From assembly GCA_013178125.1 (NCBI GenBank), contig JABLXJ010000001.1, forward strand, positions 390,538 to 435,065: DNA of 44,528 nucleotides. Direction: 5' to 3'. Numbering within the stretch: the stretch's first letter is position 1; each line of letters begins with the position of its first letter. The stretch is from Bacillota bacterium. GTDB lineage: Bacteria; Bacillota; SHA-98; Ch115; JABLXJ01. The notes below the pieces were generated by a model. That model saw nothing but the letters and a program-made list of their open reading frames with translations. It searched no databases and had not been told where the DNA came from. The position numbers and the translations under genes were made by a program. Below, piece by piece: positions 41,277-43,865 of the stretch.

Positions 41277-41744
41277 CTAGAATGCTGGCCTGACCTGCCA
41301 GATATTTAGCTCCCTGATGCCGAATTTTAATGCTTCCTCATGGGTGGACATAAAGATATCTATCCGGTGACCCTTTATAGCCGATCCTGTATCTTCGGCC
41401 CGGTATATTCCCATTCCCTCTATATATACCCATGTTCCAAGCGGTATCACATCCGGGTCAACCGCAATCGTATGATCGACCCTGGCAAGATGCCCTGCTG
41501 CTGTTACTCCAAAGGCGGGGTGTTCCTCGCCTTTCCCAGTGCATCTTGGACAAGCGTCATATGCCGTGGCTGTAACGCGGACCGGGCTTGCCGCTGGATC
41601 CGCCGGAGCCATGGAGGCCGCAATCGCGGCATGTGCCAGGTTTCAACTTAAAAGGATCACAGGTAATGTACCCAGGGCTACTCCCGCAGTAGTCACAACT
41701 ATCACGGCTCTAAGCGTTCTTGTGAGCCTGTGATGATATCTCAT
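41277..41744 (-). pseudogene. 3D-domain cell-wall protein with in-frame TGA
   Basis: From ATG 41744, with AGGAGG 9 nt upstream, codons 1-33 encode a signal-peptide-like sequence (basic MRYHHRLTRTLR, then a hydrophobic core to LPVILLS). Codon 34 is TGA (41643-41645). The same frame continues NLAHAAIAAS and a 3D domain to 41277. The 3D domain has TATAYDACPRCTGKGEEHP, VDHTIAVDPDVIPLGTWVYI, and AEDTGSAIKGHRIDIF, with the three conserved Asp residues. If TGA were a Trp codon, a normal secreted protein with an AHA cleavage site would result. Translation could instead restart at ATG 41612. 3D proteins are usually peptidoglycan-active; the stop may be a mutation, an error, or recoding. Confidence 0.7.
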
Positions 41745-41894
41745 ATCGCCTGGCCTCCTGGTATTAAAGGATAGTGGTATTAAACAATATTGAGGCTGGG
41801 TAGGCCTCTAGAGTCGTAATTTAGGTTGCCCAATATAGGGCAGGGTTTAATCATTAAAAACATGAGAAACCTGGATGATAGTGGGGGTGGCTGA

Positions 41895-43511
41895 ATGTTC
41901 AGGTTTGACGTGCAGCTGCAGGAAATATCTCAAAATTTAAAAACAATTATTGATAACATCAGCGAGGGAATACATGTAATCGATGGCGACGGGCGGCTAG
42001 TTTTTATAAATGACGTGGCTCGAGGCTTATTTCACACGGAGAACTCCGACATGGCCGGCAAACATATAACGGAGGTATTCGCGGGAAGCCCATCAAGGAG
42101 TGAGGCGCTTCTGGAGGCGATGAGGACCGGCCGGGTCGTGGTCGAGAGGGAGGAGACATTCACCAGGGATGATGGGGGCATCCTGACCGTCGCATCCATA
42201 AATGTCCCGGTCAAACTGGGGAGCCGGATTATCGGCGCGGTCAAAATATCTCGCGATGACGCGGTTGTAGCGGAGCTGACGCGGAGGATTGTCGATCTCC
42301 AGACAAGGCTTTATGAATATAGAGCGGCGGGGACATCGAGAGGTGCGGAAGCAGTGGAGGCATCAGCAGGGGCAAATGAAAATGAGACCAGGATGAAATG
42401 GGAGTCTCCCTCGGCGTCGTCTCCGGCCGGTGTTGAGGAGATTGTAGGGGTGAGCGAGCCGATAATCCGGCTGAAGCATATCCTGCAGGAGATCGCAGGG
42501 GTTGATGAACCCGTGCTGCTTTATGGAGAGCCAGGGGTCGGGCAGGAGCTTGTTGCAAAAGTTATACATGTGCAAAGCAATCAAACCAGGCGTCGCGGCC
42601 CGTTTATCTGCCAGAGTATAAGGGCTATTCCTGGTAGCATGGTCGAGGCGCTTCTTTTTGGCGCATCATCCTCACCGGGGACAGTAGAAACAGGTCGGGA
42701 TGGAGCAGGGGGAGGAGAAGGAGGGCAAGGATGGCGGAGTATAATCGGCCTGGCGGATGGCGGCACGCTTTTTCTCAGGGATATAGACGCCATGCCCGGT
42801 GAGCTCCTGGCCAGGCTTATCACGGTTGCCCGGGAAGGGCGGGTTTTCAGGGCCGGAAGTGCAGGGCCGGAAAGAGTTGATATTAGATTCATATTTGGGA
42901 TTTCTACAACGGGGGAATCTCTACCCCCGGCCCTGGCCGGCGTGGCTGGCACCATTTCCGTTTTCATCCCACCCCTAAGGGACAGGAAAGAGGATATTCC
43001 CAACCTGGTGGCGCATTTTATCTCAGAATTCAATAATAGGTTCGGGAAGCATTGCATGGGTATATCCGGTGCAGTAAGTGCTGTTCTTCAGGATTATGAC
43101 TGGCCGGGAAACGTAAGGGAGCTCAAATGCGCAATCGAGCAAGCCATGATCCTGCTCGAGGATGATTGGATAAGACTTGAGCACCTCCCGCCCAATTTGC
43201 AGCATGTTGCCAGGGAGCTCGGACCCAGGTTGTCAGAGAGTGAGCGTCCCCTGGCCCTGGAGACCGGGCTATTAGCCCTGAGCAAATCCGGGCTGCCAGT
43301 CTCAAACAAACCTGAGGTCTCAACAAATAAACCTACAGGCTCAAATAGACTAGCCCGCCCCCTCAGGCACGCTCTTGAAAACCTCGAGATTGAGATGGTG
43401 AACGAGGCGATGAAAAGGGCTGGCGGTAATATTTCCAGGGCGGCCAGACTCCTTGGCATTCCCCGCCAGACCCTCCAGTACAGGTTGAAGAAATACAACA
43501 CTATATCTTGA
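41895..43511 (+). CDS. PAS / degenerate sigma-54 AAA+ / Fis-type regulator
   Basis: The 538-residue protein has a PAS domain (about 10-120), a linker with a low-complexity stretch (145-180), an AAA+ domain of the sigma-54 activator type (about 183-440), and a C-terminal Fis-type helix-turn-helix (NEAMKRAGGNISRAARLLGI onward, about 500-536). The AAA+ domain appears inactive: Walker A is GEPGVGQE, with Gln217 for the catalytic Lys; Walker B is TLFLRDID rather than LFLDEI; the GAFTGA loop (about 256-282) is a Gly/Ser-rich stretch; and the FRxDLYYRL arginine region is missing. ATG 41895 has GGGGTGG upstream. It may bind DNA without activating sigma-54. Confidence 0.85.
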   Translation: MFRFDVQLQEISQNLKTIIDNISEGIHVIDGDGRLVFINDVARGLFHTENSDMAGKHITEVFAGSPSRSEALLEAMRTGRVVVEREETFTRDDGGILTVASINVPVKLGSRIIGAVKISRDDAVVAELTRRIVDLQTRLYEYRAAGTSRGAEAVEASAGANENETRMKWESPSASSPAGVEEIVGVSEPIIRLKHILQEIAGVDEPVLLYGEPGVGQELVAKVIHVQSNQTRRRGPFICQSIRAIPGSMVEALLFGASSSPGTVETGRDGAGGGEGGQGWRSIIGLADGGTLFLRDIDAMPGELLARLITVAREGRVFRAGSAGPERVDIRFIFGISTTGESLPPALAGVAGTISVFIPPLRDRKEDIPNLVAHFISEFNNRFGKHCMGISGAVSAVLQDYDWPGNVRELKCAIEQAMILLEDDWIRLEHLPPNLQHVARELGPRLSESERPLALETGLLALSKSGLPVSNKPEVSTNKPTGSNRLARPLRHALENLEIEMVNEAMKRAGGNISRAARLLGIPRQTLQYRLKKYNTIS

Positions 43512-43865
43512 ATCTCGAGACCAGGCTCTGCAGGGCTCGAGCCATCTTGGCGAGAGAATCCGCGGAGGCTGACATCTCCTGGATGGTTGTGTGGATACTT
43601 CTGTTTCTATCGTTTTGGTTGCATTTGTTTTGCCACCGGGCCTTCCAGCAGCACATCAGGCCTTATAGGCTTCTTCCCCTATCACACTTAGAAACCGGGG
43701 CACATACTATGTAGTGCGGTAATGCGAGGGGGCAGGGTATATGAAATCTGTCTCCTCGAACCAGCGACCAGATGCGGGTCAGTCCCCACCACGGGCGGGC
43801 CGTGAGCCGATCAGCTGCTGGCTCAACCGCCTGGGGGGCGACGGCTTGCAGGGAGGTGAAATCAT
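43512..43865 (+). other. Non-coding or weakly coding gap after the regulator
   Basis: This 354-nt stretch has one weak frame (ATG 43583, Trp/Leu/His-rich, 43 codons) with a distant GGAGG, which I do not accept as a gene. CATACTA at 43703-43709 matches a sigma-G -10 exactly, but no good -35 lies 18 nt upstream. A stem GAGCC/GGCTC (about 43802-43825) precedes the small membrane ORF. Confidence 0.4.

Follow-up and report, generated by a model that had tools for sequence, protein, structure and literature searches.

The gene at positions 41895 to 43511 of the window (the whole stretch of 44,528 nucleotides that was analysed) lies at a conserved ddl locus and probably encodes an ancient, stepwise-degenerated regulator of the PAS type, which would bind DNA independently of sigma-54. 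This protein cannot plausibly activate sigma-54, and the automatic label 'sigma-54-dependent activator' is very likely wrong for it. The regulator, its domains and the region upstream of it comprise the following features:
41277..41744, minus strand: small 3D-domain (cell-wall) protein, with a signal peptide interrupted by TGA at 41643-41645 (beside the regulator, divergent)
41823..41872, no strand assigned: candidate operator upstream of the regulator, with the half-sites AGGTTGCCCA-N30-TGAGAAACCT in inverted orientation (same spacing in the sister species G001)
41895..43511, plus strand: regulator of 538 aa, PAS - degenerate AAA+ - Fis-type HTH (ORF, Pfam, syntenic orthologue in the sister species)
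41937..42257, plus strand: PAS domain, residues 15-121 (Pfam PAS_9/PAS; dN/dS 0.154 between the sister species)
42435..42977, plus strand: AAA+ core, residues 181-361, with a fold predicted to be intact (Pfam, AlphaFold, Foldseek)
42525..42548, plus strand: Walker A, GEPGVGQE, with Lys replaced by Gln217 (alignment; identical in G001)
42663..42737, plus strand: L1 loop, residues 257-281, with a Gly/Ser-rich insert in place of GAFTGA (alignment; pLDDT below 50 at residues 258-280)
42768..42785, plus strand: Walker B, LFLRDI, with DE replaced by RD (R295, D296) (alignment)
42906..42953, plus strand: arginine-finger region without any Arg (alignment)
42978..43214, plus strand: AAA+ lid, in which sensor II (WPGNVREL) is intact (Pfam AAA_lid_14, 8e-26; dN/dS 0.13-0.15)
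43374..43496, plus strand: Fis-type HTH (HTH_8), residues 494-534 (Pfam, 1.6e-15; dN/dS 0.069-0.096)

The ORF starts with an ATG, and both the start codon and the frame are kept in the sister species. Residues 184-335 match the Sigma54_activat profile of Pfam with 75.9 bits (cut-off 20.2). Aligned to intact orthologues and to the genome's own five intact activators, the regulator has (i) GEPGVGQ217E where the intact proteins have GETGTGKE, (ii) FLR295D296I where they have FLDEI, (iii) no further arginine from R331 until R362, where they have REDLYYRLNV, and (iv) the glycine- and serine-rich insert, at about residues 257-281, at the place of GAFTGA. Among the features of a functional bacterial enhancer-binding protein (bEBP), the AAA+ profile, the lid (AAA_lid_14, residues 362-440) and a well-conserved sensor II (residues 403-410) are present, but Walker A GxxxxGK, the Walker B DE pair, GAFTGA and the arginine finger are not. 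A sequence-only reading of this gene had described these four losses, together with an intact PAS domain, Fis-type domain and frame, and all of this is borne out by the alignment, the Pfam matches and the purifying selection in PAS and HTH. Its wording that every ATPase motif is lost was slightly overstated, because sensor II has stayed intact, as has the lid.

The same reading had proposed a search of the genome for rpoN, and this gene is indeed encoded in both genomes of the genus. Since five intact sigma-54 activators are encoded in the same genome as well, sigma-54 itself has not been lost, and its loss is ruled out as the cause of the degeneration. The presence of rpoN and the intact sensor II could speak for a protein that still activates sigma-54, through unconventional contacts with ATP and sigma-54; however, the Walker A lysine, the Walker B DE pair, GAFTGA and the arginine finger are missing together and the gene has no -24/-12 site nearby, which makes such an activator highly improbable. 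In the search for -24/-12 sites, nothing convincing was found near the regulator or the divergent 3D gene, and likewise nothing beyond weak resemblances at the intact orthologues. A scan of the regulator/3D intergenic region for sigma-70 promoters recognised nothing in either species.

The genus sample comprised two genomes (that of the window, G000, and G001), and a scan of GTDB contigs for close relatives returned one match only. The syntenic orthologue in G001 (L010) has the same Gln and the same RD, and it also lacks GAFTGA and the arginine finger; amino acid identity between the two genomes is 0.68 for the regulator and mostly 0.75-0.92 for the neighbouring proteins. Because the other genome of the genus carries the same losses, chance is excluded as their source, and these shared losses also rule out recent decay or an assembly error. 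An artefact of assembly or frameshift, by which an intact gene would only look degenerate, might be suspected in a draft genome of 54 contigs, but it is already refuted by G001, a different species that was assembled independently and shows these losses too; the reading frame is also unbroken and the substitution pattern is of the coding type, so that this explanation is hardly credible.

Further from the genus, the gene near ddl in the second family of the order (G002) keeps GSGKE, has KD and TALN in place of YRLN, and is without GAFTGA. In another genome of the same order (G003), the locus still has ddl, kamA and the 3D gene but no regulator. In two sister genera of the same class (g4 and g5), the orthologue is intact in every member except one (G007); in g5 it lies after ddl, and in g4 it and the 3D gene are divergent. 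These intact orthologues of the ddl/3D locus (L011-L017, L019, L022) are syntenic with the window protein and approximately 37-42% identical to it, but unlike it they have Walker A, Walker B, G[GS]FTGA and the arginine finger all intact. The order of the losses can be read from the tree. The ancestral protein at the ddl locus of this Firmicutes class was a bEBP of the PAS-AAA+-Fis type; the ancestor of the order lost its GAFTGA, its arginine finger and the DE pair of Walker B, and in a second step this genus lost the Walker A lysine.

The exception in the sister genera, the orthologue of G007 (L031/L145), is partly degenerate (GEIGTGKK, GFKNG, NE), which is an independent event. Two related PAS-AAA-Fis activators also deviate, one with GREL, RTVSGT and DD (G026, L032) and one with the variant GTALSA (G020, L021). 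Because these three proteins show further partial or variant sites, degeneration is recurrent in activators of the PAS-AAA-Fis type, and it is complete in this genus.

Selection was estimated as pairwise Nei-Gojobori dN/dS between G000 and G001, at a dS of about 1 and thus with moderate saturation. The values for the regulator are 0.07-0.10 in the HTH, 0.15 in PAS, 0.13-0.15 in the lid, 0.22 in the AAA core and 0.43-0.56 in the linkers. By comparison, the AAA cores of four intact activators in the same two genomes have dN/dS values of 0.024, 0.028, 0.059 and 0.067 (the fifth pair was left out as too similar). The AAA core of the regulator therefore evolves 3-9 times faster than those of intact activators (0.22 versus 0.02-0.07), at a ratio still well below 1, which indicates that most of its special constraint has been lost and yet that the protein is not drifting freely. 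The comparison of PAS and HTH with the AAA+ domain, proposed in the sequence-only reading, thus finds the two outer domains under the stronger purifying selection, and together with the intact frame this makes a retained DNA-binding role the best reading. It had also been held that intact relatives combined with relaxed selection would indicate recent decay. Intact relatives do exist, and constraint on the AAA core has dropped 3-9 fold; the decay is nevertheless not recent, because the losses are ancient, being common to the genus and in part to the order, and because the AAA core still has a dN/dS of about 0.22.

The faster evolution of the regulator and its outright loss in G003 indicate that this locus is dispensable in the order. 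The gene could accordingly be a slowly decaying relic: its job would have ended in the ancestor of the order, leaving only residual constraint. The long branch to the order, the raised dN/dS of the AAA core, the absence of the gene from G003 beside retained ddl, 3D and kamA genes, and the position of an AAA-vWA operon, which the sister genera carry downstream of an intact regulator but which lies elsewhere here, without its preceding element, are all consistent with such a relic. On the other hand, the frame is open over its full length in both lineages at a dS of about 1, the dN/dS of the HTH is close to the range of functional activators, and the region of the start codon and the inverted upstream half-sites are conserved. 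A relic is consequently considered unlikely, and a degenerated regulator that still binds DNA is preferred.

An AlphaFold model of the regulator, built on an alignment of 15 sequences, has a mean pLDDT of 71.5; the AAA core is mostly at about 75-92 outside the L1 insert, and the insert is below 50. Foldseek matches the model to the folds of FleQ, NtrC1, PspF and VpsR, with TM (target) scores up to 0.84-0.85, and the model of the AAA+ core to FleQ and NtrC1 with a TM (target) of 0.84. According to this model, the ATP module persists as a folded shell. Such a shell could serve a dominant-negative role, in which the regulator, as an inactive partner in mixed oligomers, tunes or poisons an intact activator of the cell; the genome encodes five of these, and the retained AAA+ fold and lid would fit this role. 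However, the regulator has a conserved HTH of its own and half-sites upstream that are distinct, constraint on its AAA core is only weak, and an intact close paralogue of the same PAS-AAA-Fis type is absent from the genome, the closest paralogue being 34% identical over residues 171-535. This role is therefore judged improbable.

In the preferred reading, of a sigma-54-independent DNA-binding regulator, the AAA+ shell would carry dimer or oligomer contacts, the PAS domain would receive the signal and the HTH would contact DNA, so that binding would depend on the signal, without ATP or sigma-54, at ordinary promoters. The gene stands alone and is divergent from the small 3D-domain gene, an adjacency found in G000, G001, G002 and six g4 genomes; since it is conserved, the 3D gene is the best candidate target. 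The half-site pair common to G000 and G001 (two sequences) reads AGGTTGCCCA-N30-TGWGAAACCT and is only suggestive of a binding site of the regulator. A whole-genome search at no more than 2 mismatches found it at one place in the 3.48-Mb genome, and the regulon could not be read off for this reason. The targets would most probably be the promoter of the regulator itself and the divergent 3D gene, through occupation of the half-sites at 41823-41872, and repression seems somewhat likelier than sigma-70 activation.

In the sister genera, a non-coding element of 56 bases (TGGGAAANNAGGGCACN5TNGCGGTATGCGCCNATTNTGGCANGGNCATAATA) is present between the regulator and the AAA-vWA operon (L051-L055, L057, L145). 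It keeps 34-43 of its 44 fixed positions in all seven sister-genus loci examined, whereas upstream of the operon at its other places in this order, where the element is absent, the match is 21-26, which is background. Speculatively, this separation of operon and element may reflect how the sigma-54 job was lost. A gene resembling lysine 2,3-aminomutase by sequence (kamA) directly follows the regulator in G002 (L068) and the empty site in G003 (L144); it is possibly a former or present target of the regulator.

Homologues of sigma-54 activators that have lost GAFTGA are already known. A defective GAFTGA has been described in TyrR and DhaR of E. coli, HupR of R. capsulatus, VpsR of V. cholerae and YplP of B. 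subtilis, and TyrR, DhaR and HupR are reported to be sigma-70 dependent (PMC3162934). The regulator is like these proteins in its bEBP fold with a lost GAFTGA and a kept DNA-binding domain, but it goes beyond them in having also lost the Walker A lysine, the Walker B DE pair and the arginine finger; it is, moreover, a PAS-AAA-Fis protein of Firmicutes. In a comparison of TyrR proteins, Walker A and B were described as present (PMC6375630). NtrC of Rhodobacter capsulatus and of Caulobacter, in which L1/GAFTGA is deleted as in the regulator, controls sigma-70 promoters; the former still binds ATP and the latter needs ATP binding and hydrolysis (PMC10274813). These NtrC proteins are of the two-component receiver type and retain the ATP-site sequence, whereas the regulator is of the PAS type and has lost the ATP-site residues.

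The general domain order of the regulator is that of the PrdR-type PAS-AAA-Fis sigma-54 activators of Clostridia. PrdR (NF041552) is its best named NCBIfam relative, but the match of 223 bits is far below the cut-off of 795 and rules out that the regulator is a PrdR. PrdR itself works as a sigma-54 activator, for the proline reductase genes (PMC6615313). Among 490 Clostridiales proteins of the bEBP kind, 455 have GAFTGA or a working variant, a minority being without it (PMC6615313). The best documented GAFTGA-less activators keep the nucleotide site, and what is new here is that the nucleotide site is lost too. At this locus, syntenic proteins range from an intact activator through partial loss of the ATP machinery to its complete loss, while the cell retains sigma-54. 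A small set of natural proteins thus allows a test of how an AAA+ activator turns into an ordinary DNA-binding regulator.

The signal peptide of the divergent 3D protein, interrupted by UGA, may prove more surprising than the degenerate regulator. The protein is encoded in one frame on the minus strand as M(41744)RYHHRLTRTLRAVIVVTTAGVALGTLPVILLS-TGA(41645-41643)-NLAHAAIAAS...3D, and an in-frame TGA just before the cleavage region is present in 25 of the 28 family members inspected, from many Firmicutes families (family loci: window gene, L078-L090, L114-L138). The interrupting codon of these 25 members is TGA, never TAA or TAG, and the following base is A in 18 of them. Two 3D proteins have uninterrupted signal peptides (G064, G102), and one 3D gene has a TAG further upstream, which may be unrelated (G089). 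In the sister genus, the 3D gene evolves in a coding manner, with dN/dS of 0.09-0.20 on the 5' side of the TGA and 0.36-0.57 on the 3' side up to the domain.

SelB is encoded in seven genomes (G000, G001, G002, G003, G017, G043, G046); in G004-G010 and G014, both SelB and a convincing tRNA-Sec are absent, and six of these (g4) keep the TGA. Selenocysteine as the sole explanation of the TGA is thus unsupported in g4. The amino acid at the TGA would fall in the part of the protein that is cleaved off. A strong hairpin (z -3.8 to -5.0) lies within about 45 bases 3' of the TGA in L119, L120 and L122 (G043, G255, G301) and appears SECIS-like in its position; across nine sequences, the consensus SECIS-like fold downstream of the TGA is weak. 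A 2026 review that covers 119 selenoprotein families (PMC13188914) does not list the 3D family. These sequence features suggest a programmed UGA readthrough that would limit a cell-wall enzyme, or a selenocysteine-gated export in some lineages. It is a tentative and rather doubtful proposal that a nucleotide-free, PAS-gated bEBP controls a 3D gene itself gated by the UGA in its signal peptide, as a two-level module. In this proposal, the bEBP lineage would have abandoned nucleotide use altogether along a natural series, from an intact protein to one with Walker A only, then to one whose ATP site is gone, and finally to loss of the gene.

Downstream of the regulator, a remnant of a convergent methyl-accepting chemotaxis gene is found at 43512-43584 and 43682-43755. 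This gene is intact in G001 (730 aa); in the window it is deleted save for its 3' end, and the far flank resumes about 100 bases on.
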